The notes beneath the pieces are model-generated. The model did not search any database, was not told the origin of the DNA, and saw only the letters and a program-made list of their open reading frames with translations. Source: a virus. Taken from it: DNA of 49,930 nt. The stretch covers positions 1 through 49,930 of the IMG/VR virus record IMGVR_UViG_3300042507_002017. One strand, written 5' to 3'. Positions 7,465 to 48,519 of the stretch are shown here, piece by piece (positions within the stretch are counted from its first letter, which is position 1; every line of letters begins with the position of its first letter). The translations under genes and the position numbers were made by a program.

Positions 7465-7512
7465 TTATTTTAACCTTTCTGGTTATCCATTCTAACCAAC
7501 TTAGTTATAAAT

Positions 7513-7583: not shown

Positions 7584-8111
7584 TTACCCTACGGTTGTTG
7601 TGGTGGTTGTTGTAGGACATGCTCCAAGATTAGCTGATGACACACCTGGTATAGGAGGCACCACTAATGTTCCTGTACAAGCACATACGTAGATGATACT
7701 AGGACCTGCTACAGAAGTGTTTACAAGAATTCCTCCACACTGATAGTAAGATATATTAACAGGTGAAACAGTTGAATTAGTCACAGAGTAGAACGCACAA
7801 GAAGGACAAGCTATTGTTGTAGTTGTTGTGGTTGTCGAACTTGTGGAAGTTGATGTTGTTGTTGTTGTTGGACAGCAATTACCCAAAGCCACCTGAAGAT
7901 TGTAGATCTGCTGTTTGAGGCTACAGATCTGAGTGTCAATCTTTTGGAAAGCCACGGTTGCTGTGTCATATGCTGCAATTAATGTACAAGATAAATTAGG
8001 TCCGCTGTATGCAACATTGTTAGTTGGCGTAAGGGGCGTACTACAAGGATCACATCCGCAGGTGACAACTGGAATCGTTGTACAGCATGGATTTTGTGGA
8101 AGGTATATCAT
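7584..8111 (-). CDS. Cys-rich protein with poly-Thr linkers, probable fibre or head decoration
   Basis: This 175-residue protein has a Cys-rich N-terminus (NPCCTT, TCGCDPC), a short coiled-coil-like helix (TATVAFQKIDTQICSLKQQI), a Thr/Ser run at about residues 81-97, a small beta domain (CPSCAFYSVTNSTV... YYQCGG... VCACTG) and a second Thr run at the C-terminus (CPTTTTTTTVG). It probably hangs from the virion surface, with the Thr runs acting as flexible or glycosylated spacers. It follows the collar-fibre gene by 21 bases. I do not recognise the beta domain. A Thr tail of the same kind ends the protein at 10267-11439. Confidence 0.8.
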   Translation of the reverse strand: MIYLPQNPCCTTIPVVTCGCDPCSTPLTPTNNVAYSGPNLSCTLIAAYDTATVAFQKIDTQICSLKQQIYNLQVALGNCCPTTTTTSTSTSSTTTTTTTIACPSCAFYSVTNSTVSPVNISYYQCGGILVNTSVAGPSIIYVCACTGTLVVPPIPGVSSANLGACPTTTTTTTVG

Positions 8112-13193: not shown

Positions 13194-13345
13194 CAGAGTG
13201 ATTCCCACCGAAGGGATAGCGATTGGGAGACACCCCAGTCCAACCACTCTGTAAGTGAGAAGAGCTCCCCCACGGGGATGTGGGGGGCAATCTCTTCTCG
13301 GTATAAGGGTCTAAGGATAGAATCCTTAGAATGGTTCCTTAGAAT
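13194..13345 (-). ncRNA. Structured 3' untranslated region after the capsid gene
   Basis: In the 174 bases between the capsid gene and the next gene, RNA order is as follows. First comes stem CTAAGGAT/ATCCTTAG (13311-13318 with 13322-13329), with a 10-base direct repeat TCCTTAGAAT (13323-13332 and 13336-13345) at the stop codon. Next is a long stem GAGAAGAG/CTCTTCTC (13257-13264 with 13292-13299) with an inner CCCCCAC/GTGGGGG stem. Last is a 7-base stem CAGAGTG/CACTCTG (13194-13200 with 13245-13251) closing two hairpins in a three-way junction. No T-run follows, so this is not a simple terminator. Confidence 0.6.
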
Positions 13346-14892
13346 TGTGGGATTTCTTCAATCAAAACTGTACGAGACAAGTCTTCAATGAATACATCAC
13401 AACGGTCTTTCATCCAGATTTCGTATCCTGGGAATTTGTTCGCAGAGCTCATACCCTGAGACTTAGCAAAGCCTAAGTGGTGGCGAGTTCCATCGATATA
13501 ACCCCAAGTCATAGAAGGTGCACCCTTCATACGTACTTCACGGATGTTGTTAACCAATGAACCATCAGACATAGGAGATACGTCGAACACCATGAATACA
13601 GGTGTGCTCTTCTTGTTCTGACCAAATTCAAGGTTAGATTGTGGAAGATCCAACTCTTTCAAGTGAATCAACTCAACACGACCAGTCTCACGAGTAACCA
13701 TTGCATCGAATGCAAAGTTATAAGTGATGTGCTGACCTTCTCCCTGCATGTAACGGTTTCCAGAATCAGCCATGAAAGTCAAGCCACTGTTTAAAGCGTC
13801 TGTCTTCAAAGCTTGTTGGAATACGTCAAATCCAGCTTCGTTAGTGTACATTTTAACACGACGGTCCTTAACATCCACACGACGATAGAACAAGTCACCA
13901 AACACAGAACGAATCAAGTTTGCAGTGAATTCTCCACGGTTGTATTGAACAAGGTTACCGTTATTACGCATTCTGTGATAAACACCAGCAGATGTACGCT
14001 TAAGTTCTTGCTTGCTACCGTTAGTCTTAACAGTACCAGGACGAGACCAAATCATACGCTTAACTTTCAACTCAAGCATAGACTTACGCATCCAGAACTC
14101 AATAAATGGCTCCCATTTAACATCGTTACGAGTTAAAGGAAGTTGGTTACGACGCTGAGGTGCATATACAAGGATGTCCAAAGGACGACCTGCAGAGTCA
14201 CGCATCATTTTGTCATCAGCCCACTCAGTGATTTTGTGCTCGAAACCATATGCAGAACCCAAAGATTCAAACATTGTGATTTGCTCACCCAAACGAGGAA
14301 GACCCAAAAGATCTTGATCGAATTCACCAATTGCAGCATCAACCAACTCAAGTTCGATACCTACCTGTAAGAAGGTTGGGCTTACGAAGTCTACAGTTGG
14401 ATTGTCTGTAACAAGTGTGAAGCTGTAAAGGAAGCCCATGTTCCAAGGAACTGGATCCTTAATAACGTAAAAACGAGGACCATATTGACGAGTACCAACA
14501 GAAATGATTGCGTTCTTAGAGAACTCATTTGTGTCAATTACCAATTGGAACTCTTGACCATCGATACCAGGCTTGCTCAGCTCAGCTGTAGCAGCAGGGA
14601 TGTCGATAATCTTAGGGAATTTGTAGGGAACAGCTACTTGCCATTTCCAAGCATCGCTATTATTATCAATGTAATAAGGCGTGCTTTTGTTGATCATGTC
14701 AAGGAAGTCATTGCTGTACAGAGAGCTCTGTGTATAGAGGCTGATGATCTTCTTGTCGTAATCAGCAGGCTCAGTTGAGTGAAAGCTCTCCAGGTGGTTA
14801 GCGTCAGTTAGCTTACCCACAGCACGCTTGTCCATAGATGCGACACGAGCATACGTGAAGCCAGTTAGACCTGGGATTGTTTGAATTGCCAT
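13339..14892 (-). CDS. Major capsid protein
   Basis: This 517-residue protein is assigned as the major capsid protein by its place after portal and scaffold, its length (crAss-like capsid proteins are about 500 residues) and its codon use, which is more regular than that of its neighbours, as expected for a highly expressed gene. It starts MAIQTIPGLTGFTYARVASM. The central part contains DVKWEPFIEFWMRKSMLELK, compatible with the long spine helix of the HK97 fold, and the C-terminal part DGSLVNNIREVRMKGAPSMT. It lies 26 bases after the scaffold gene and is followed by a strongly structured RNA. Confidence 0.88.
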   Translation of the reverse strand: MAIQTIPGLTGFTYARVASMDKRAVGKLTDANHLESFHSTEPADYDKKIISLYTQSSLYSNDFLDMINKSTPYYIDNNSDAWKWQVAVPYKFPKIIDIPAATAELSKPGIDGQEFQLVIDTNEFSKNAIISVGTRQYGPRFYVIKDPVPWNMGFLYSFTLVTDNPTVDFVSPTFLQVGIELELVDAAIGEFDQDLLGLPRLGEQITMFESLGSAYGFEHKITEWADDKMMRDSAGRPLDILVYAPQRRNQLPLTRNDVKWEPFIEFWMRKSMLELKVKRMIWSRPGTVKTNGSKQELKRTSAGVYHRMRNNGNLVQYNRGEFTANLIRSVFGDLFYRRVDVKDRRVKMYTNEAGFDVFQQALKTDALNSGLTFMADSGNRYMQGEGQHITYNFAFDAMVTRETGRVELIHLKELDLPQSNLEFGQNKKSTPVFMVFDVSPMSDGSLVNNIREVRMKGAPSMTWGYIDGTRHHLGFAKSQGMSSANKFPGYEIWMKDRCDVFIEDLSRTVLIEEIPQF

Positions 14893-16332: not shown

Positions 16333-16863
16333 CTAATCAAGTTTGTTTATCACCGTGTCGTTTATTATCCTGTACGAACGGATTGGAGCTATGTCAGTGA
16401 GTGTAACCTGTTGGATTTCAACACCCCATTTCCTTGCCTCCACCCTAGCTTTCTTTGTGAGGGTGTTATCAATCTCAATGTCTATACACTCCTCTAAGGT
16501 TTTGTCCATAATGATGTTCTTAATAATAGACTGTGTCATATCTGATATAGCATCCTCAGCATCATACACTTCTAACACAAATGTCTGAATGTCAGCTATT
16601 TTGTATTTGATCAACCCCTTCACAACAATGTTCTGTTTGTCTTTAGTGTAAAGACTCTGTGGGGGTAGGCTCAGGGTTGTAACTACAACATGCTGTTCCA
16701 TAGGATCATCCACAAATGGGATGCGCCAGTGGAAACCAGGTTTAACTACCTTGTGGAACTTACCAAAGCGTAGAACAACTGCTTCCTCAAAATCTCTAAC
16801 GATAAAGAAGGGGAGCAGTTGTTCAAACCAGCTAGTTAGTAGGTCAATGAGCCTATCAAACAT
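16333..16863 (-). CDS. SPFH/band-7 domain protein
   Basis: This 176-residue protein is a short stomatin/prohibitin-like (SPFH) protein. The N-terminus has a membrane-associating hydrophobic segment (LIDLLTSWFEQLLPFFIV, about 5-22). The SPFH core follows: FEEAVVLRFGKFHKVVKPGF, then HWRIPFVD, TTLSLPPQSLYTKDKQNIVV, AISDMTQSIIKNII and VEARKWGVEIQQVTLTDI. The C-terminal coiled coil of larger family members is absent. Host homologues form rings on the inner membrane and hold proteases such as FtsH. Finding it between portal and scaffold genes is unusual. Roles in membrane-linked head assembly or protease control are inference only. Confidence 0.85.
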   Translation of the reverse strand: MFDRLIDLLTSWFEQLLPFFIVRDFEEAVVLRFGKFHKVVKPGFHWRIPFVDDPMEQHVVVTTLSLPPQSLYTKDKQNIVVKGLIKYKIADIQTFVLEVYDAEDAISDMTQSIIKNIIMDKTLEECIDIEIDNTLTKKARVEARKWGVEIQQVTLTDIAPIRSYRIINDTVINKLD

Positions 16864-19448
16864 TATTTAGATTTTGTAGCTCGATTCTTGGCGTTTAATC
16901 TTGCTATTTCCAAGTCGTTCTTTTGATTTTCTCTAGCCACCTTCAGCTTCTCTCTTTCAATCTCAAGCTTCTGAAGGTTCTGGACATTCTTCCCCTGAAT
17001 GTCTGCCATTTTCATTTCATAATCTTTTGCTGTACGAGATTGTTCAGCAGCAATTTTATTAATCTCTAGAACATCAGGAGCACCACTCTTGTCTACATCG
17101 CTGAGAGGTCCCATATTCTTGGCCTCAGCAGCAATAAGAGCAATCTCCTTCTTATTAATTCTATCCAGTTCGTTCTGATAGTTATCATTGGCAATCTCTT
17201 GCTCTTTCTGAAGCTGAGCCTGTTGAAGTTGAGCAGCTGCAATCTCTCTTTGCTGATCAATCTGCTGTTGTTGAGTTTGCATTTGTTGATCTTGCACTTG
17301 CATTTGTCTGTCTCTCAACTCTTTAAACACCTTCTTCATAGCCCTCATGGACTTGGTGCTGTAGAGCTCAATTACATCGTACAAGCTTCCACCATTCTGA
17401 ATTACAGCTTGAGACAAACCTCTAAGCTCGTCGAACATTTGCTTATCTTCAGGACGATTTGTTAAGAACACCTTCAGGTCACGGAACTTAAGATCAGAAC
17501 CGTTCACCTGTACAAACGCAGCTTCTCCCTCATTTGTAATGTAGGAGAGGGTGGATTGTGGCTTCTTGCTTTCTACGTACAGGGCAGCATCAATGATAGA
17601 TTGATAGAGCTGACCCATAATATATTCGTGTGCTACAAACAGAGGCTCTGTTTGAGAATAAGATTGTTGAATAGCTGTGTTTGTACCTGTAGCAGACTCA
17701 CTAGCTGATACAGATCCCATACGTTGCTTACTCATACCCACAAGCTCCCAGCATTCATTCTTGAGCTGTTGTGCTAACGTGTAACGAGATTGTATCTCCT
17801 GCGTACGTGTGAGGTCAATGTCTCTAAACTGGTTGAAGCTAGAAGGACTCTTCAGGTTCTCAGGGCTATCGTCAATAAACATCACCCCACGATTGCGAGC
17901 TTCCATTTCCCAGATGTCAAGAGCATCTTGAGCATCACCATCCTTAGGGATAGGAATGTGTCTGATGGATGTCAAATACACTTTACCCACTTCCTTCTCA
18001 AGGAGCTTGTAAAGCTGGTTCATACATACATTGTACAACACCTGGAAAGGCTTCATTAAGTCCACCAGAGACTTAGCCTCTGTGTTCTTCACCTCAAATG
18101 TTGTACCAATGATGGGACAATAGTTAAGAAGTTTAAATGGTTTTATATGATAGATGTCAGGTCCAATCTTAGTTCCTTGATACCATTGATTAATCCATCC
18201 CCATTCTATAGATTCCTGTGTAGGAATTGTACCACTCTTATAATTCTCATCCACCAGAACAGACTGTTCGTTGCCCAGCTCATCTAAGTAGATCACCTTG
18301 CCAATCTTCTTCTTACTGATCCAATAAGATCTCACCACCACATATTTGTATCCAAATGAAGACACATTAGATGTAAGTCCTAAGAAGTCTTTTAGTCCGT
18401 CGTTGTTCTCCTTCATCTCTGATTCAATAATCATACGTGTCTGGAGAACAAGAGGGTCAAATGTATCATATTGCACTGAGTCAATACCAGGAATCGCATT
18501 AGGATTACCTAGATTAGACTCACGCACATTGATTAATCCATAGTCTTGAAGAGAACTACGTAAGTGATCAATCTCCTCTTTGGTGAGGTCAGGAATGCTT
18601 TCAATGATTTCTGAAAGTTCCATAACCTGTACTGTACCAGCCGCATAAGCACCTTGAGCTCTACCTGTAGGATCAGAGATCCATTTTCTATCAGGAGTTG
18701 TAAGAAACCAAGTGTTCTTGGGGTTAGCCACCTCAACATTAAATCCAAGTTTTGAGTTGTCTTCATATATGTGATAGAATTCTCTTCCAGAAATTAGCAA
18801 ATCGCGAAACGCATCTTCACTTTTTTCCTTTAGGTTAAACTCAGCCTTCTGACAGGTGAGTACGTGATTAGCCCATTTCTCAGCTACAGATGTATAGCTA
18901 TCTAGCACATCTTTCACTTGATCCATGGTAAGTTGCTGCAACTCTTCCTCGTCAATCTCTTCACCCTGCATTGCAGCTTGTTGAACAATCTTTTGTTTAG
19001 CTTGGCCAATTACATATTCTTGAAGAATGTCTGTCTTGAATTGTAGCTCTTCAGCCTTACTGTCATCATCAAATGCCTTCACCCTGAATGTGTCAGGGCG
19101 TTTTGTGATTTCACCCACCAGCTCGTTTACAGGGGTGGTCATGATGGAATACATCTTTACATATGCAGGAAGCTGTAAATCAGCTGTCATCATATCTGTA
19201 AAGCTCTTCACTGTAGGCTCTTGATAGAAGTCTTCCATTCTCAAGATGCCTTTTATTAGGTCGTAGTTTTTGACAAAGGTGTCACGGTTCTTCACATACT
19301 CAGCGTAAGCCTTGTTTGCAAAGTAGTCCATGGTGTTCTTTATCCAACTCTCGTCTTGCTTTTCCTTGTCCGTCTTAAACTGGTCAGGGAATATATTTAG
19401 ATAGGCATATCTAATTGTAGCATCTTTCGTATATCTAATGATAGCCAT
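16863..19448 (-). CDS. Portal protein
   Basis: This 861-residue protein follows TerL, with its start overlapping the TerL stop, and is assigned as portal by position, length and composition; crAss-like portals are unusually long. It has the wing and stem region LLNYCPIIGTTFEVKNTEAK, LMKPFQVLYNVCMNQLYKLL and SASESATGTNTAIQQSYSQTE, a typical portal segment near residues 560-600. A Gln-rich coiled coil runs from about residue 705 to the end (RDRQMQVQDQQMQTQQQQID). The C-terminal barrel-like helix could extend into the head. Confidence 0.88.
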   Translation of the reverse strand: MAIIRYTKDATIRYAYLNIFPDQFKTDKEKQDESWIKNTMDYFANKAYAEYVKNRDTFVKNYDLIKGILRMEDFYQEPTVKSFTDMMTADLQLPAYVKMYSIMTTPVNELVGEITKRPDTFRVKAFDDDSKAEELQFKTDILQEYVIGQAKQKIVQQAAMQGEEIDEEELQQLTMDQVKDVLDSYTSVAEKWANHVLTCQKAEFNLKEKSEDAFRDLLISGREFYHIYEDNSKLGFNVEVANPKNTWFLTTPDRKWISDPTGRAQGAYAAGTVQVMELSEIIESIPDLTKEEIDHLRSSLQDYGLINVRESNLGNPNAIPGIDSVQYDTFDPLVLQTRMIIESEMKENNDGLKDFLGLTSNVSSFGYKYVVVRSYWISKKKIGKVIYLDELGNEQSVLVDENYKSGTIPTQESIEWGWINQWYQGTKIGPDIYHIKPFKLLNYCPIIGTTFEVKNTEAKSLVDLMKPFQVLYNVCMNQLYKLLEKEVGKVYLTSIRHIPIPKDGDAQDALDIWEMEARNRGVMFIDDSPENLKSPSSFNQFRDIDLTRTQEIQSRYTLAQQLKNECWELVGMSKQRMGSVSASESATGTNTAIQQSYSQTEPLFVAHEYIMGQLYQSIIDAALYVESKKPQSTLSYITNEGEAAFVQVNGSDLKFRDLKVFLTNRPEDKQMFDELRGLSQAVIQNGGSLYDVIELYSTKSMRAMKKVFKELRDRQMQVQDQQMQTQQQQIDQQREIAAAQLQQAQLQKEQEIANDNYQNELDRINKKEIALIAAEAKNMGPLSDVDKSGAPDVLEINKIAAEQSRTAKDYEMKMADIQGKNVQNLQKLEIEREKLKVARENQKNDLEIARLNAKNRATKSK

Positions 19449-21475
19449 TATATAAAAAGTTTACTTTTTTTCACTTTATTAAATAACCCACGAGATTCTG
19501 TAAACAGAACGTTCTTCTTATTGGGTTTGAATATCGCACTCACTCTAGGATCAGATGACCCCCCTACCTTACCAAGTACAGGATCCATCTTAAGAGCCTG
19601 AGCTATAGCAAGTTCTGCAGCAATAATACGGTCAAAGTTACCCTGATCGTTATACTGAATTATCTCTTCTAGCAGTACAGGATCAAATATCTTTGACACT
19701 CCGTGCACCTCTTTGGTGATGTTACCATCTTCATCCTTCTCGGTGTATACCACTTCCTCCATATACTTCTTGAGACAGTTATGCAGGTAGTCTCTGATTT
19801 TGTCAGAGCTTCTGTGCACACCATACTCGCGTTTCACTGTTGTACCAGGCACCACCTCTTTCAACCAATCAGGTTGTTTCTCAAGGTAGTGTGCATCTCC
19901 TTTTGCTTTCATGTATTCTATGAAGGAGATGTCATCATTCTCACAGAGCGTACGTGCGTTGTAATATTTGATGAGAAGTCTAGCCTGTTCTTCCCAGGTG
20001 TCTTTCTTATCAGGTCGAGCACAATACGAAGCTACGAACATATCTTGATATTTCTCACCTGTTATGTCGTGCATTCTCTTATAAACGTACACAGATCCTA
20101 ATGATGTAGAATAGGCAGCTTGTCCTTGTCTGTAAGGATCGACCCCAGCTACATACAATCCATATGGAGGACTTTCAATAGGAAACTCATATATGACAAC
20201 AGGAGCATCCTTTAGATCGCTATTTTTTAGAGGGAAGTTGGTTATAGGCTGTTTGTCTGTAAACTCATGGCTGATTTTCTCTCCGTCATGAAACAAAATT
20301 ACAGGAGTGCCTGTACGCCCCTGGTTAAGCAGTCTACTCTTTTGACGTTTAGCTGCCTCTATATCAAATATGTTAGTGTCCTCATTCAGGAAGATGTCAT
20401 CCACTTCAAGTGGGTAGTACATCTTTTCTTTTAGATAGGCCACCCTATCTCCTGCTTTCTTCAGGCGTTCAAGGTTGGCTGTGGTTATTTCAAGAGCTTT
20501 GTCTTCATTGCTTACAAGCATCTTGACATTATGAAGATCGCTTCCTTCAGGTTGTTGAAGAAATTCACCCAGCGTGCTCTCTTCCTTAGCTTCCATTCTA
20601 TACTTATACGAAATAAATAAGCCATGAACACGTTTCTCATCTTTCTCATTGTTATAAGCAAGGAAGTTAAAGTTGTCTGCGTCAAACATTAAGGACTTAG
20701 CGTCCATAAATTTCTTCATATCACCACCTGTTCCTGTCAGGAGAGGAGAACATCCCCATCCATACGGAGTGGTGAAACCAGGCACAGCTGCCTGAAAGCC
20801 TCTGAGGAAGTTGCCCTTACCAATCTCGTCAATAATTAGTTTACGAGGTTTGGTACCTGCAATAGCCTCTTCGTTATTACCTTCATCCAAGTTACGGATG
20901 AGGATTTGAGAGAACGGTATACGTTCTCCTCCACGAGTCTTGATACCTAGGGTGACTTGGTTTTTCCAATTGTCCTCAACTCTCTGCCATCTCCATGCTT
21001 CAGGTAGGAAATTGAGGCCCTTGTCCAGCTTGTCTGTGATCAGCTTTATGTCGGGAGCGTTTAACCCAGCGATCACATTCTGGGAGTTTTCATCAAATGT
21101 TGCGCCCCACCCTATGTAAGAAGCCTCTAAAACAGACTTGGCAAAACGTCGTATTCCTAGTATCACCAAGCCCTTTTTTTCTTGTTGTGCCCTGTCAATC
21201 TCATTTGTCACAATCCATTCGTTATCACGTAACAGGGGGTTGGCATATTTCTGGTAGATGCGTCCTCTTTCATCAACAACATCCACCTCTGTGTGCCACA
21301 CATTTAAATGCCAATAGAGGAATGGGTTAATATATGTCCCATTCATCATGCATCCATTCAGACATAACTCTTTATGAAAGTCAAAGAATGACCTATACTC
21401 AGCTGACTCACGGTCAGGGAGTCTTCCCTGATTAATGAACCAGTCTTTGTAGTCTATACTTATAAGTTCATTCAT
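19448..21475 (-). CDS. terL: Terminase large subunit
   Basis: This 675-residue DNA-packaging motor has an ATPase domain in the N-terminal half. The P-loop region reads VILGIRRFAKSVLEASYIGW (about residues 104-123), where the usual second Gly of GxxxxGK is Ala, a deviation known in some terminases. Walker B is KLIIDEIGKGNF and the coupling motif is LLTGTGGD. The RNase H-like nuclease domain starts at YVAGVDPYRQGQA, with further acidic residues downstream. The N-terminus INPFLYWHLNVWHTEVD is typical of the crAss-like group as I know it. Its start overlaps the stop of the gene at 21472-21807. Confidence 0.92.
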   Translation of the reverse strand: MNELISIDYKDWFINQGRLPDRESAEYRSFFDFHKELCLNGCMMNGTYINPFLYWHLNVWHTEVDVVDERGRIYQKYANPLLRDNEWIVTNEIDRAQQEKKGLVILGIRRFAKSVLEASYIGWGATFDENSQNVIAGLNAPDIKLITDKLDKGLNFLPEAWRWQRVEDNWKNQVTLGIKTRGGERIPFSQILIRNLDEGNNEEAIAGTKPRKLIIDEIGKGNFLRGFQAAVPGFTTPYGWGCSPLLTGTGGDMKKFMDAKSLMFDADNFNFLAYNNEKDEKRVHGLFISYKYRMEAKEESTLGEFLQQPEGSDLHNVKMLVSNEDKALEITTANLERLKKAGDRVAYLKEKMYYPLEVDDIFLNEDTNIFDIEAAKRQKSRLLNQGRTGTPVILFHDGEKISHEFTDKQPITNFPLKNSDLKDAPVVIYEFPIESPPYGLYVAGVDPYRQGQAAYSTSLGSVYVYKRMHDITGEKYQDMFVASYCARPDKKDTWEEQARLLIKYYNARTLCENDDISFIEYMKAKGDAHYLEKQPDWLKEVVPGTTVKREYGVHRSSDKIRDYLHNCLKKYMEEVVYTEKDEDGNITKEVHGVSKIFDPVLLEEIIQYNDQGNFDRIIAAELAIAQALKMDPVLGKVGGSSDPRVSAIFKPNKKNVLFTESRGLFNKVKKSKLFI

Positions 21476-23475: not shown

Positions 23476-23485
23476 ATAGTTAATA

Positions 23486-23517
23486 CAAAGATAGGGGGTT
23501 ATTCTAACATATTCAAA
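23486..23517 (-). promoter_or_regulatory. Main leftward promoter of the virion operon
   Basis: On the minus strand TTTG (23514-23517), 20 bases, TATCTTTG (23486-23493): a perfect match to the Bacteroidota consensus. The predicted start site is about 5-7 bases past the -7 box, leaving a leader of only about 5 bases before the ATG at 23475. Confidence 0.85.
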
Positions 23518-23718
23518 TACAATCTTTTATCCTATTGCTATATTATGTTATTTTTTCCACTAGATACACCATCCCCATTCTTAATTCCGTAGCTCAACTG
23601 TAGCCATTCATTGACTTACTGTCTGTAGGAAGTATCTTCTCCTAACCCACCCTCCACCCCAAAGTTACAACCCTTCCCCATATACTACCAAATTTATTTT
23701 TTGCACCCCCCCCATACA

Positions 23719-23734
23719 TGTTTCACGTGGAACA
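23719..23734. promoter_or_regulatory. parS-type ParB-binding site
   Basis: The 16-mer TGTTTCACGTGGAACA reads TGTTCCACGTGAAACA on the other strand, an exact match to the ParB consensus TGTTNCACGTGAAACA found on most bacterial chromosomes. No parA or parB gene is visible in the window. A chance match to the fixed positions in 50 kb is of order one in ten thousand. It sits in the divergence region, where a partition or loading site would be expected. Confidence 0.72.
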
Positions 23735-23820
23735 CATCCCCCCTGAAAACCCCCCGTGTCTATAAAATGTTCCCTGTTCATGAGAGGGGAGGGTACTCCA
23801 TTCCAAACCCCCCAGCACAA

Positions 23821-23858
23821 TCTGAGAGGTTGGGGATACCCCCGTCAAAACTCTCAGA
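23821..23858 (+). other. Stem-loop in the divergence region
   Basis: Perfect arms TCTGAGAG (23821-23828) and CTCTCAGA (23851-23858) enclose an inner GGGG-ATA-CCCC stem. The preceding bases (CCATTCC, AAACC, CACAAT) resemble the sequence before the structured RNA at 24212, which begins with TTGAGAGAT. The two may be related elements. It lacks a following T-run. Confidence 0.55.
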
Positions 23859-23985
23859 AGACTTGCTTTTTCAATCCGCATAGTAATTAATTTCCTTGAA
23901 ATAGGGTGAGTGGCTGAATGATGCCATAATGATTACAGAGGTCATTGGAGCAAGTCTTCATTTTATTAACTTAAAAACTTTTACA

Positions 23986-24162
23986 ATGGAAGGTCACAAG
24001 TACAGGAAGGTATTGTTCAACACAAATGATAGACAATATCCATTCCTATTCAAAAGAGAAGACAACATCTACATACTAATAGACAGTAATGGTAAGCTGT
24101 CAGGTGATGGGTTTGATAGCGTAGAACACGTTCTCAAATACTTCCCAAAGGCAGAACTCTAA
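23986..24162 (+). CDS. Small hypothetical protein, first early gene
   Basis: The frame encodes MEGHKYRKVLFNTNDRQYPF and then LFKREDNIYILIDSNGKLSG to YFPKAEL, 58 residues in a probable beta-rich fold. I chose the ATG at 23986 because it follows an A/T-rich leader typical of this genome; an in-frame ATG at 23929 would add 19 residues of different character. Function unknown. Confidence 0.65.
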   Translation: MEGHKYRKVLFNTNDRQYPFLFKREDNIYILIDSNGKLSGDGFDSVEHVLKYFPKAEL

Positions 24163-24183: not shown

Positions 24184-24209
24184 CATTCCGTCCCAAATCC
24201 TTTTGTACA
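24184..24209 (+). repeat. Copy 1 of a 26-base upstream repeat
   Basis: CATTCCGTCCCAAATCC followed by TTTTGTACA. It matches the copy at 24764-24789 at 24 of 26 positions. It lies just before the structured RNA that leads the gene at 24363, so it may be a promoter or operator. Confidence 0.7.
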
Positions 24210-24211
24210 AT

Positions 24212-24315
24212 TTGAGAGATAGTGGTTGATTAGCCTCGTGAGCTGCAAAACAGCGATAGAGAGGAAGCAGGCGTGCCTGTAGAAAGATACGAAGAAACCA
24301 GCCACAATCTCTCAA
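24212..24315 (+). ncRNA. Structured RNA, possible 5' leader element
   Basis: A closing helix pairs TTGAGAGAT-A-GTGG (24212-24225) with CCAC-A-ATCTCTCAA (24302-24315): 13 pairs around one A-A mismatch. Inside are a helix CCTC/GAGG (24234-24237 with 24261-24264) leading to the hairpin GCTG-CAAAA-CAGC (24242-24254), with GA opposite GA next to it. A further hairpin is CAGG-CGTG-CCTG (around 24268-24279). No frame fills this stretch. It ends 47 bases before the ATG at 24363, so it could be a leader or a free small RNA. No known riboswitch family is recognised. Confidence 0.6.
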
Positions 24316-24362: not shown

Positions 24363-24722
24363 ATGGAATTCTTCTACGATTTCAACAGTAATCAGGTTGT
24401 TAATCCTTTGGACAGGATAACACATTTCTTTGTCAATCCTTACATGATAGGCTCATGGAAGATGTTAGGCTTGGATAAGAAGGTAAGTGATTGTGAGGTT
24501 GTTATTCAAGAGTCAACAGGACTGCCAATTATTATTCTTCCAATTAGCCTTCTCAACCTTGAGAAAGTGCATGTTAAGATGGAGAATAATGGTAACATGT
24601 TGATTACCAATAGGTTAAGCAAGGTGACACAGAAAATCTATGCTAAACCAACAGAACAGAAGCACATCGTGAGGATTGATACAGTGTTGAACAGTAGTCA
24701 TTGGGAAAGTCTTATAGCATAA
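24363..24722 (+). CDS. Hypothetical early protein
   Basis: A protein of 119 residues starting MEFFYDFNSNQVVNPLDRIT. It has alternating beta-type segments (CEVVIQESTGLPIIILPISL, KVHVKMENNGNMLITNRLSK) and no motif I recognise. I placed the start at 24363 rather than the upstream in-frame ATG at 24333, which would lie closer to the structured RNA. A bidirectional terminator follows immediately. Confidence 0.72.
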   Translation: MEFFYDFNSNQVVNPLDRITHFFVNPYMIGSWKMLGLDKKVSDCEVVIQESTGLPIIILPISLLNLEKVHVKMENNGNMLITNRLSKVTQKIYAKPTEQKHIVRIDTVLNSSHWESLIA

Positions 24723-24756
24723 AAAAAGGGGGGGGAGAACACTCTCCCTTTTTTTT
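24721..24756. terminator. Bidirectional intrinsic terminator
   Basis: A7 and G8 (24721-24735) are followed by the stem GGGAGA-acac-TCTCCC (24733-24748) and T8 (24749-24756). The A and T tracts make it work in either direction. Confidence 0.8.
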
Positions 24757-24763
24757 ACCAAAT

Positions 24764-24789
24764 CATTCCGTCCCAAATCCTCTTATACA
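24764..24789 (+). repeat. Copy 2 of the 26-base upstream repeat
   Basis: CATTCCGTCCCAAATCC followed by TCTTATACA. It lies 39 bases before the ATG at 24829 and right after a terminator, the place where a promoter is needed, although no Bacteroidota -7 box is present. Confidence 0.7.
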
Positions 24790-24828: not shown

Positions 24829-25233
24829 ATGAACAAAAATTATGTCATCAACAACGGGTCATTCACAGCAAACGGTAATTTCTCAGGCTACACAGCTCTT
24901 GGCGAGCGTGTGCACATCTTTGGTCGTCAAATGTCAGCTCTTGGTTGGGCTAAGCAAGACGATGTTAAGTTTCCATTCTATGCCATTGGTACAATGAAAG
25001 AGATTGGTCAACTTGATGCAAGCGGTAAACCATTGGTTGACGCTAATGGTGTTGCTGTTACATCAGGTCGTCTTACAGCACTCAGCGCTTTCAAATCTCG
25101 TGAAGAGATTAAACAAGCACACGCTGATAGTGCATTGTTAGACATCGAGATTGCACAAGAGATTCGCAACCAAGCAAGCACAGCAGGCTTGACTGAGTCA
25201 GCAATCAATGCTCTTGCTAATGCTTCGTTCTAA
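24829..25233 (+). CDS. Hypothetical early protein, likely highly expressed
   Basis: A protein of 134 residues. The N-terminal half is beta-rich (NYVINNGSFTANGNFSGYTA LGERVHIFGRQM) and the C-terminal half is Ala-rich helix (SREEIKQAHADSALLDIEIA, TAGLTESAINALANASF). It stands alone between two strong terminators with the 26-base repeat upstream, and its codon use is unlike that of the early neighbours. That suggests a separately controlled, abundant product. I have the impression of relatives in other Bacteroidota phages but cannot name a function. Confidence 0.8.
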   Translation: MNKNYVINNGSFTANGNFSGYTALGERVHIFGRQMSALGWAKQDDVKFPFYAIGTMKEIGQLDASGKPLVDANGVAVTSGRLTALSAFKSREEIKQAHADSALLDIEIAQEIRNQASTAGLTESAINALANASF

Positions 25234-40861: not shown

Positions 40862-41581
40862 ATGAAATGGGAGAAATTCGCTGACCAGTTCCACGAGAGC
40901 TGGCATTACAAGATGAAACCGTTTATTGAGAGCAATGAATGTGATGCCATCTATGAGTTTCTCAAAAAGGAAGCAAAGAGGGGTAAGAAGATTGCCCCTC
41001 TTTCTTCTAATGTTTTCAGAGCATTTAAAGAAACATCACTAGATGATTTAAAAGTGGTTATGATAGGCATGTGTCCCTACCACACTATGAAGAATGGTGT
41101 GGCTGTAGCAGATGGTCTGCTTATGGGATGCTCTATCACAAACGCTCTGCAGCCTTCATTAGAGCAGTTTTACGGTGCGCTGGAGAGAGAACTACACAGT
41201 GGTCTCAATCTCAAATACATCAAAACGCCTGATGTTAGCTATCTAGCTAAGCAGGGAGTGCTAATGCTTAACGCTGCACTCACCACAGAAATCAACAAAG
41301 CAGGCTCACATATTGCCCTTTGGGAACCGTTCACCAGATATCTATTTGAGCATGTGCTCGATACAGCTGGTGTTCCCTTTATATTCCTAGGCAAAGATGC
41401 TGCTAAGTATGAACGTTATGTTCCACCATTCACATGGTCCTTCACCCTATCACATCCAGCTTCAGCAAGCTACAAGAATACAGATTGGGATACAGAGGGA
41501 GTGTTTGGTAAGGTGAACACCATCCTCAAGGAGAACAACAATTATCAAATCATGTGGCTATACGAAGAGCCACCATTCTAA
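40862..41581 (+). CDS. ung: Uracil-DNA glycosylase homologue with altered catalytic loop
   Basis: This 239-residue protein follows the UNG family layout: LKVVMIGMCPYHTMKNGVAV (about 56-75, the water-activating loop GQDPYH of UNG), ADGLLMGCSITNALQPSLEQ, AKQGVLMLNAALTTEINKAG (about 128-147, with the uracil-binding Asn) and TLSHPASASYKNTDW (about 196-210, with the catalytic His). The loop Asp is replaced by Cys (TGT codon), so the key water-activating residue is missing. It may be catalytically weak, specialised or a binding protein. It starts 1 base after the DUF932-like gene. Confidence 0.87.
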   Translation: MKWEKFADQFHESWHYKMKPFIESNECDAIYEFLKKEAKRGKKIAPLSSNVFRAFKETSLDDLKVVMIGMCPYHTMKNGVAVADGLLMGCSITNALQPSLEQFYGALERELHSGLNLKYIKTPDVSYLAKQGVLMLNAALTTEINKAGSHIALWEPFTRYLFEHVLDTAGVPFIFLGKDAAKYERYVPPFTWSFTLSHPASASYKNTDWDTEGVFGKVNTILKENNNYQIMWLYEEPPF

Positions 41582-44669: not shown

Positions 44670-46220
44670 ATGAGTATTTTTAGCCTGAACTGGTTCAAAT
44701 CCAGAAAAGAACAAGAGATCGAAGATCTTAAGCATGAGATTAAGCTCAAAGAATTGCAAAAGCAGTTGGAAAAGATGGATAATCCTCCAGCTCCTGCTGT
44801 AAATTACAGCACAAGTACCTCGTGGTTTCCACAAACAAGCACACCACTTGGTATAGGTGGGTTTGGAGTTTCTAACTATGCAGCTGGTGTTATAGCTGAA
44901 CCAGAGAAACCTTATAAAAGCATAAAGCTGGTGAATGACATGCTCACTATCGTTCTGAATGATGGTTCTATCATCAGCAAACCTGGTGCTACTAACGATG
45001 ACTTTCAATACGCTCGTAAAGCAACCACAGAAGAACAACTTCTGAATCTTGTTGCTTGTCAGGAGGTAGTGGCTGAGAAGAAGAGAAATGAGGCAGAGGT
45101 GGCTAGAGCTAGAGCTATCAGACAAGGCATTGATAAACTTGCACAGCTTGAAGACTTCCGTATGGAAGGAGATTCTGTGTATATTGTAGGCATCAACCGT
45201 TCTCTTCCACAACTATTGGTTGAGGAGTTCCTCGTGATAGCCAACAAATGTTGGTTCAATCAGGAAATCCTTGATGAAAATGAGGAGTTTCAATCTCTCA
45301 AGCGCTTCTTTATGTGGTGTTGCTTGAATCCAAGAGCTGAAGTGGCAGATAAGCTTTACAACTTCCTCAAGAAGAATAGCTTTAAAATCACCAAGCAGGG
45401 ATTCTTTGCTGCACTCAGGAACGTAGTTACACTCCACGGAGGTACAGAGTTTGTCCAGTTTGTATCTAATGCATACAATAAGGTGAAAGCTGTATGGAAG
45501 AAAGCTCCTGATAAGTATGAGGTGTATCTAAAAGATGGCGTATATTCTTTCTTACACATTGATGAAACCTACACCACAGAACTAGTGGAAGGTGAAGAGT
45601 GGTATGATGAGGACATTGAAGACTATGTTTGTGAGGAAGATGAAGAAGTCACTGTTAAGAGATCTGACCTAGGTGAACACCTTGGTAATCTGACAGCTCT
45701 TTATCTAGACCTTCCTAATAGAGCAGAGAATCGTTTCACAGATGCACATACACAAACTTTTGACATTCGTGTAGGTAGAGCTGTAAACATGGACCCTAAA
45801 TCATGTCGTTGGAATACTGACGATTGTGGTGCTGAGGGTCTGCATTTCACCTCTGATGAGATTCATTATGTAGGATGTGGTGACCAGTCTGTGTTAGTCC
45901 TCATTAACCCAATGAAGGTGGTGGGTATTGGCGAATCAAAGGGCAGATGCTGGGAATATCTCCCAATCATGACTGTTCCTCGTGAGGAAGCTACTACCAT
46001 CCTTCATGATTTGGACTTTGACACATTACAGCTGGATGACAGCTATGCTATTCGTGAGCTTGAAGATCTAACAGAGAAAGCAAAAGATGGTTTCGTAGCA
46101 GAGAGCAAGAAGCATGAATTCAACATGCCTCACATCTCTACAAGAGAAATAGAGAACATTGTAGCTTCTTTAGATGAGATGAAAAACGAGATAAGCAAGC
46201 GCATCGTCCCTCTTGATTAA
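44670..46220 (+). CDS. rIIB: RIIB-like protein
   Basis: This 516-residue protein has the RIIB pattern: NDMLTIVLNDGSIISKPGAT (about 91-110), GDSVYIVGINRSLPQLLVEE (about 168-187), FKSLKRF-type helix FMWCCLNPRAEVADKLYNFL (about 213-232), FKITKQGFFAALRNVV and CGAEGLHFTSDEIHYVGCGD (about 388-407) followed by VLINPMKVVGIGESKGRCWE. It is longer than T4 RIIB (312 residues) through a coiled-coil N-terminus (KEQEIEDLKHEIKLKELQKQ) and a helical C-terminus. It is expected to act with the RIIA-like protein. The leader AAAGCACATATG is shared with other genes here. Confidence 0.87.
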   Translation: MSIFSLNWFKSRKEQEIEDLKHEIKLKELQKQLEKMDNPPAPAVNYSTSTSWFPQTSTPLGIGGFGVSNYAAGVIAEPEKPYKSIKLVNDMLTIVLNDGSIISKPGATNDDFQYARKATTEEQLLNLVACQEVVAEKKRNEAEVARARAIRQGIDKLAQLEDFRMEGDSVYIVGINRSLPQLLVEEFLVIANKCWFNQEILDENEEFQSLKRFFMWCCLNPRAEVADKLYNFLKKNSFKITKQGFFAALRNVVTLHGGTEFVQFVSNAYNKVKAVWKKAPDKYEVYLKDGVYSFLHIDETYTTELVEGEEWYDEDIEDYVCEEDEEVTVKRSDLGEHLGNLTALYLDLPNRAENRFTDAHTQTFDIRVGRAVNMDPKSCRWNTDDCGAEGLHFTSDEIHYVGCGDQSVLVLINPMKVVGIGESKGRCWEYLPIMTVPREEATTILHDLDFDTLQLDDSYAIRELEDLTEKAKDGFVAESKKHEFNMPHISTREIENIVASLDEMKNEISKRIVPLD

Positions 46221-46224
46221 TATA

Positions 46225-46266
46225 TTTGGAGAGTGTCACATTTTTTTATAGATTTGTGACACTCTC
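46225..46266 (+). promoter_or_regulatory. Promoter embedded in a 12-base inverted repeat
   Basis: TTTG (46225-46228), 20 bases and TAGATTTG (46249-46256) form a perfect Bacteroidota promoter for the HNH gene. Perfect arms GAGAGTGTCACA (46229-46240) and TGTGACACTCTC (46255-46266) flank the -7 box: one arm fills the spacer after the -33 box, the other covers the start-site region. The repeat could be an operator, or a hairpin ending the RIIB transcript. Confidence 0.68.
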
Positions 46267-46279
46267 TTATTATAACTAT

Positions 46280-46684
46280 ATGACAATCAAGAAGAAACGT
46301 GGGTCTAGCAAACCAAAGGTTGCTAGGCCTAGAAATGCTGGCACTATGACAGAAAGCGCCTTTTGGTCCTTTATTCGTAGTGGTCTCAGGCAAAAAAGCA
46401 GGTTTTGGAAACCTATAACAGAATGCAAAATGGAAGCCCGTAGGCCTTATAAAGGTCCTAATAAGAGGCAGAAATATGAATATTTGTGCAACAGCTGTAA
46501 TAAATGGTTTCAGGAAAAGAAAATTAACGTGGATCATATTTGCCCAGCAGGAAGCCTTAATTGTGCACAAGACCTCCCAGGATTCGTGGAGCGTTTGTTC
46601 TGTGAGAAGGAACATCTGCAGGTGCTATGTGAGACATGTCATAATGTTAAAACACAAAATGAAAAGAATGGAAAAGCAAAATGA
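46280..46684 (+). CDS. HNH endonuclease
   Basis: This 134-residue protein has a basic N-terminus (IKKKRGSSKPKVARPRNAGT), a zinc pair (YLCNSCNKWF, about 73-82), the central INVDHICPAG (about 87-96) and CEKEHLQVLCETCHNVKTQN (about 112-131), the HNH pattern with CxxC zinc ligands. It is of the free-standing type often seen as a homing nuclease. It has its own promoter within an inverted repeat. I used the ATG at 46280; an in-frame TTG at 46226 lies inside the promoter. Confidence 0.85.
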   Translation: MTIKKKRGSSKPKVARPRNAGTMTESAFWSFIRSGLRQKSRFWKPITECKMEARRPYKGPNKRQKYEYLCNSCNKWFQEKKINVDHICPAGSLNCAQDLPGFVERLFCEKEHLQVLCETCHNVKTQNEKNGKAK

Positions 46685-47971: not shown

Positions 47972-48519
47972 AAAAGACAATAACCAGCATCTTTATGGTG
48001 CCAACGTTGAAGATTCCCAAAGATCCGTTAAAGGATAATGGATTCATCAATGGTTATGTCAAGGATGGAAGCAGAGAGGTGCAGTATGAAAACTGCATCT
48101 ATCTGCTCTTCCAACCTGCAGACCTAGATAAATTCAGGGAGTTTCTAGACAGTGAGTATGAAAGAACCAAGAGTTTGATTGATGACTATGATTATGAGAA
48201 AGGATATGTCGTAGTGGTTTATCAATTAGATAGTAAATTTGCCAAGGATTTCGATCTTGTTAAAAGAGGTAAATATTCCAAGACCTCTAATGGCTTTCAA
48301 GCACTCTTTCCAAAGGTGATAAAGATTAAGAAGAATGGTCTGCACAAGGATGAAATAAGCCTGCAGTATCGCATCTTTAACAGGACAGAAGATCTTATCA
48401 AGTTCTGGGAGGAGAAGCTAGGTGTAGAGTTTGAGGATGACCAGGAAGTTTGGCATGGGTTTGAAGAAGAAAATGAGATTCTAAACATTGAAAAACTTAA
48501 AGAGTATGTACAATCATGA
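47962..48519 (+). CDS. Hypothetical protein
   Basis: A protein of 185 residues: TSIFMVPTLKIPKDPLKDNG, ENCIYLLFQPADLDKFREFL and KGYVVVVYQLDSKFAKDFDL, with an acidic helical C-terminus (FEEENEILNIEKLKEYVQS). The alternating strands suggest a globular alpha/beta protein. It overlaps the exonuclease end by 10 bases, so they may be made together. Function unknown. Confidence 0.8.
   Translation: MEIKKTITSIFMVPTLKIPKDPLKDNGFINGYVKDGSREVQYENCIYLLFQPADLDKFREFLDSEYERTKSLIDDYDYEKGYVVVVYQLDSKFAKDFDLVKRGKYSKTSNGFQALFPKVIKIKKNGLHKDEISLQYRIFNRTEDLIKFWEEKLGVEFEDDQEVWHGFEEENEILNIEKLKEYVQS

Follow-up and report, generated by a model that had tools for sequence, protein, structure and literature searches.

A structured RNA behind a putative early promoter in a freshwater Crassvirales phage

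A structured non-coding RNA, termed RNA A, is present at positions 24212-24315 (+ strand) of the window, by which we mean the whole analysed stretch of the virus record IMGVR_UViG_3300042507_002017 (49.9 kb viral fragment). It had been proposed in a preliminary description made from the letters alone and was found to be real, with a fold z-score of -5.72 and stops in all three + frames of the window copy. We tentatively explain it as an accessory, swappable early RNA that would act via its conserved core and mainly in trans, a reading to which we give slightly less than an even chance. RNA A and the modular early arrangement around it appear to be new, structured phage RNAs as such being already known; the open-licence papers searched contained nothing on structured early RNAs of crAss-like phages and described the early region of Crassvirales by protein genes only. 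Crassvirales rank with the most abundant of known phages, and little is understood of how they take over the host early in infection.

Results

Virus and setting of the locus

The window is from a Crassvirales phage, a freshwater crAssphage relative. Its terminase (19448-21475) shares 33% identity with those of the Cellulophaga phages phi17:2 and phi4:1 and 39% with that of Leptolyngbya phage Lbo-JY46, the identity to gut crAss-like phages being lower. Relatives of the terminase were encoded by more than 500 viral contigs, the best 80 of which were taken for comparison. From a divergent non-coding stretch at 23476-23985, late genes run leftward and early/replication genes rightward, and RNA A is placed just within the rightward (early) side. 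The early genes of crAss-like phages are transcribed by a polymerase that enters the cell together with the genome, which is established for phi14:2 (cited in PMC8375218, PMC7886860 and PMC10136315).

Early promoter motif

A 26-base element, CATTCCGTCCCAAATCC..., had been described as repeated before RNA A, and its two copies at 24184-24209 and 24764-24789 are 24/26 identical. It belongs to the motif TCCATyCCAAAACCyyTnnnACA, which was found before early genes of relatives. A weight matrix trained on relatives only, with the window left out, recovered exactly three sites from the window, each of them on the + strand, and the next-best site scored 14.0:

23797-23819, + strand: early promoter motif P1 (site 23797, weight matrix score 25.3)
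24184-24209, + strand: early promoter motif P2, repeat copy 1 (site 24187, score 26.5)
24764-24789, + strand: early promoter motif P3, repeat copy 2 (site 24767, score 26.3)

In 58 deduplicated relatives, every matrix match of at least 17 was on the strand of the early genes, in most cases close to the first of these. The locus belongs to the early region, and the repeat upstream of it behaves as an early promoter motif in the weight matrix. An early promoter is our best reading of this repeat, and we infer that the motif is the promoter of the genome-injected phage polymerase. Only 2 bases separate the end of P2 (24209) from the start of RNA A (24212). Folds clearly stabler than random follow 4 of 24 strong promoter sites (P1 and P2 of the window and P1 of the related loci L023 and L057); since most early promoters have no structured RNA behind them, structure is not general to these promoters. 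A second recurrent motif, ATATAGCATTAA, occurs in the loci of 37 of the 58 relatives, for example near 7466 in the related phage L083, and near 23540 in the divergent region of the window. It stands before many genes in both directions and is possibly a second promoter class.

Fold of RNA A

The features of RNA A are as follows:

24212-24315, + strand: RNA A, structured RNA (fold, z-score, homologue at L083 7848-7927)
24222-24266, + strand: conserved core, 5' part (GTGGYTGATTAGCCTCGTGAGCTGCAAAACAGCGATAGAGAGGAA), 44/45 identical in L083
24267-24287, + strand: insert carrying the CAGG/CCTG hairpin, optional (a single base in L083)
24288-24305, + strand: conserved core, 3' part (TACGAAGAAACCAGCCAC), 18/18 identical in L083

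The fold energy was -38.0 kcal/mol, and the z-score given above refers to 200 dinucleotide shuffles, none of which was as good. Of 2,492 equally long segments taken from the two strands, RNA A had the second-best shuffle z; by a plain regression of energy on GC it was less extreme (z -2.7, approximately 45th of 7,666). Fold prediction of a longer transcript gave the same structure. The closing helix pairs 24212-24220 with 24307-24315 and 24222-24228 with 24299-24305; the single A-A mismatch of the preliminary description is found at 24221/24306, and the helix has 15-16 pairs instead of the 13 that had been counted. The internal arm with its CAAAA loop (24246-24250) is likewise present at 24234-24264: CCUC/GAGG (24234-24237/24261-24264) is followed by an internal loop with GUGA opposite GAUAGA and by GCUG/CAGC at the tip (24242-24245/24251-24254). 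The short hairpin GCAGG-CGUG-CCUGU (24267-24280) completes the three-way layout in the window.

The antisense strand folds nearly as well (z -6.55), as expected of any helix. Three observations speak for the + strand: the direction of the promoter, the U-G pairs, which on the opposite strand would be A-C, and the covariance-model score (127.9 bits versus 22.9 bits for the opposite strand). Other stretches of the window with fold scores near that of RNA A are 46203-46332, 48010-48155, 40899-41067, 13248-13355 and 16772-16875. The junction was in the end not interpreted as a kink-turn (GAA-GA-AACC), since the register in which GUGGYUG/CAGCCAC pairs leaves no adjacent GA pairs.

Homologue and conservation

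A homologue of RNA A was identified at 7848-7927 of L083, a related phage (the same record as L032, IMGVR_UViG_3300014720_000308). The core, 63 bases in two blocks, is 62/63 identical between the two copies; the terminase genes of the window phage and L083 agree at only 55% of their fourfold-degenerate (silent) sites. The sole core difference turns a U-G into a C-G pair in the closing helix. Identity between the window and L083 ends at the edges of RNA A and of a short A-rich leader. The alignment leaves a two-stem internal-loop structure as the conserved core. Its identity between the copies might also reflect a recent transfer, in which case strong selection need not be assumed.

The outer helix of L083 differs in sequence and still forms about 12 pairs, with the A-A mismatch becoming U-G. 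Between the two closing helices, two pairs are changed on both sides, one is changed on one side and two are broken. The compensatory changes sought by the preliminary description were seen in part in the one homologue, as two doubly changed pairs and the U-G to C-G change beside the two broken pairs, which is weak support. Covariation was matched by 129 of 500 shuffles, a test that with two copies is underpowered and no proof of the fold. The helix changes are compatible with the predicted structure, and core conservation is the main evidence. The CAGG hairpin is replaced by a single base in L083, so the third arm is optional, and the three-way junction, although correct for the window, is not a conserved property.

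A covariance model of RNA A (R1) was used for homologue scans. Over 50 whole related records it found RNA A only in L032, and neither approximately 30 further related loci nor 11 loci fetched via a neighbouring early gene yielded another copy. Relaxed core-motif scans of viral contigs and genome contigs gave no further copy; the relaxed-pattern candidates L085, L098, L099-L101 and L102-L115 failed the covariance model, and L097 in a thermophilic archaeal contig (20 bits, E 0.019) was judged a chance match. BLASTN against phage and plasmid collections gave no homologue of RNA A. L003/L005 and L019, which with terminase distances of 0.01-0.02 are the nearest relatives, do not have RNA A, and its carrier L032 lies at a terminase distance of 0.16. 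This patchy presence among relatives suggests that RNA A is an accessory module, exchanged between phages or often lost.

No Rfam 15 family matched anywhere in the window at the gathering threshold, and at a permissive threshold RNA A gave only chance-level antisense matches, in keeping with the earlier statement that it is no known riboswitch. ARAGORN found no tRNA or tmRNA gene. Mimicry of the E. coli rrnB rRNA gave no signal, and within the window the complement of the conserved UACGAAGAAAC segment, sought as an antisense target, occurs only in RNA A itself. A hammerhead ribozyme (CUGANGA...GAAA) was rejected, as L083 has CUGAUUAG in place of CUGANGA, GAAA does not directly follow stem II, and Rfam gave no match.

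The P2 transcription unit

The claim of a gene 47 bases downstream of RNA A was borne out by an ATG at 24363. The P2 unit and the gene next to it comprise:

24363-24722, + strand: orphan gene, 119 aa, no relatives in viral contigs, Pfam, PHROGs or 43 related records
24728-24757, + strand: terminator-like hairpin and T run at the end of the P2 unit
24829-25233, + strand: early gene behind P3, with relatives in 11 loci and a counterpart directly after P1 in L019

The predicted structure of the gene 24363 protein had a mean pLDDT of 56.6 and was left aside. No terminator was found between RNA A and this gene, which indicates that both are on one primary transcript, and terminator-like hairpins after gene 24363 and after the next gene make P2 - RNA A - gene 24363 - terminator the probable composition of the unit. 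Such a unit would suit a cis-acting leader, riboswitch-like or protein-binding, by which RNA A controls translation or decay of gene 24363: P2 is 2 bases upstream, a terminator lies after the gene and none before its ATG, and in both RNA A copies a small gene follows at about 25-50 bases with the same A-rich start leader. RNA A also resembles Rfam riboswitch aptamers and structured 5' leaders in having a closing helix, a conserved unpaired core and a position upstream of a gene, but differs from them in its lack of an Rfam match, the permissive threshold included. The linkage to one gene family that a leader would have is not seen. The L083 copy follows P1 at a distance of approximately 1.1 kb, with another closed RNA upstream of it, and precedes a 67-aa ORF that is unrelated to gene 24363, so the two copies stand before unrelated orphans. 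Ligand-free folding predicted no structure in which RNA A pairs alternatively with the start region of gene 24363, its fold being unchanged in the longer transcript, and no expression platform tied to RNA A (terminator or masked start) was found. The preliminary description had left open a leader of gene 24363 or a free RNA; the shared transcription unit supports the former, while the unrelated gene behind the L083 copy makes a switch specific to gene 24363 less likely. Taken together, we regard a cis-acting leader as unlikely, though with appreciable weight.

RNA B behind P1

The stretch behind P1 contains a further structured RNA:

23823-23856, + strand: leader hairpin after P1 (fold; similar GGGG/CCCC hairpins after P1 in relatives)
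23857-23959, + strand: RNA B, with a 13-pair closing helix GAAGACTTGCTTT/GGAGCAAGTCTTC and a homologue in L023
23986-24162, + strand: small ORF, 58 aa, no family above noise

RNA B contains the conserved hairpin GTGGCTGAATGATGCCAT. In comparison with L023, six pairs were changed on both sides with 96.5% of cells paired, and the covariation was equalled by 10 of 500 shuffles; a scan of viral contigs found no third copy. In L023, RNA B is preceded by P1 and followed by the next promoter with no ORF between, and therefore looks like a free RNA gene. It is mainly this arrangement that makes an independent RNA preferable to a gene-specific leader for this class. In the window, an ORF from ATG 23929 (23929-24162) overlaps RNA B; the more likely start of the 58-aa ORF is ATG 23986, which has an A-rich start leader before it.

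Other structured RNAs in relatives

A further RNA, termed scaffold RNA (GCACCA ... TTCCCAAG ... AGTGCAGAGGGA), was observed in the early region, on the strand opposite the terminase, of 19 of 58 relatives (L016, L021, L022, L023, L025, L027, L028, L029, L032, L034, L039, L054, L056, L062, L064, L069, L070, L076 and L077). Its layout is TTTTAATGCACCA, a hairpin with loop TTCCCAAG, a part running from CAGTTGTAATA through a hypervariable stretch of 5-80+ nt to TATTACAACTG, and finally AGTGCAGAGGGA. Covariation was strong in the hairpin and the long helix, and the loop TTCCC can pair with the 3' GGGA in a probable pseudoknot. The scaffold RNA has no Rfam match and is missing from the window. It resembles RNA A in its early location, long closing helix and lack of an Rfam match, and one copy adjoins RNA A in L032; it differs in sequence and layout, in the probable loop pseudoknot and in its occurrence in 19 of 58 relatives.

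Unrelated closed RNAs were also observed. In L083, TGTAGGC...GCCTACA (7766-7847; weak fold, z -2.6) lies directly upstream of RNA A, and in L057 (reverse strand, first 350 bases) AATGAGTTGTAATAA...TTATTACAACTCATT (z -4.8) occupies the same early slot. Near 7728-7760 and 8150-8182 of L083, near-identical terminator-like hairpins AGAGCCTGTAACAGGGCTCTTTT stand immediately before closed RNAs; this hairpin is common to 16 relatives. The arrangement in L083 looks as if gene, terminator and RNA were exchangeable cassettes.

Discussion

Two known systems invite comparison with RNA A. The put RNA of phage HK022 is likewise structured, part of an early phage transcript behind an early promoter (putL) and not linked to any single gene; it consists of approximately 70 nt in two stem-loops and acts on the host RNA polymerase (PMC9378689). 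Its suppression of termination goes through binding to the zinc-binding domain of that polymerase. RNA A, by contrast, has 104 nt rather than two stem-loops of about 70 nt, its ends are joined by 15-16 pairs around one or two arms, its transcription probably depends on a phage polymerase of the crAss type, and any put-like activity would be hypothetical. With Y RNA it shares a long helix pairing both ends and a variable interior, and in crAss001 a TROVE protein is expressed early (PMC8375218). A TROVE/Y RNA partnership was discarded for RNA A, since no TROVE/Ro60 protein was found in 36 records (the fragmentary window record and 35 related ones, several near 110 kb) and Rfam gave no match.

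The comparison with put bears on the idea that RNA A is a gene-independent cis element, either a put-like antitermination RNA acting on the polymerase or a 5' structure protecting the early mRNA. The window copy lies right behind an early promoter (24209/24212), much as putL lies just downstream of PL (PMC9378689), its linkage is independent of the gene, its 5' helix is long, and early units end in terminators. However, P1 and the L083 copy are about 1.1 kb apart, most early promoters of these phages, including P3 in the window, have no structured RNA behind them, and unrelated RNAs fill this slot across phages, where a shared role in polymerase control or decay predicts otherwise; we consider the idea improbable. 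That RNA A has no RNA function at all, and is a fold arisen by chance, an element acting as DNA or a piece of coding sequence, is very improbable, as the single homologue and the one frame open across RNA A in L083 are outweighed by the fold z-score, the stops in all three + frames of the window copy, the core conservation far above silent sites and the wobble pairs that favour the + strand.

We thus return to the preferred explanation, an accessory early RNA acting mainly in trans. RNA A would stand at the 5' end of an early transcript in this freshwater Crassvirales phage, either within a short P2 transcript that also carries the small orphan gene or cut from it, and would belong to the variable early region as an accessory module. 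The internal loops of the conserved core and its unpaired UACGAAGAAAC segment may be the active parts, and the long outer helix presumably does no more than hold and protect this core. RNA A would most likely bind a host or phage protein in trans, as decoy or regulator.

The question is wider than one locus, because RNA B shows compensatory changes and the scaffold RNA occurs in relatives. As a doubtful but possible generalisation, RNA A, RNA B, the RNAs of L032 and L057 and the scaffold RNAs might form a swappable early RNA set of freshwater crAss-like phages. Its members would stand behind virus-specific promoters, carry conserved or hypervariable cores held by a long outer helix, and, during takeover, target functions of the host or of competitors in trans. 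If this is true, conserved and exchangeable structured RNAs immediately behind early promoters would constitute an unrecognised class of early effectors or regulators with defined ends and promoter, and the early RNA set would correspond, on the RNA side, to the variable early protein genes that phages carry.
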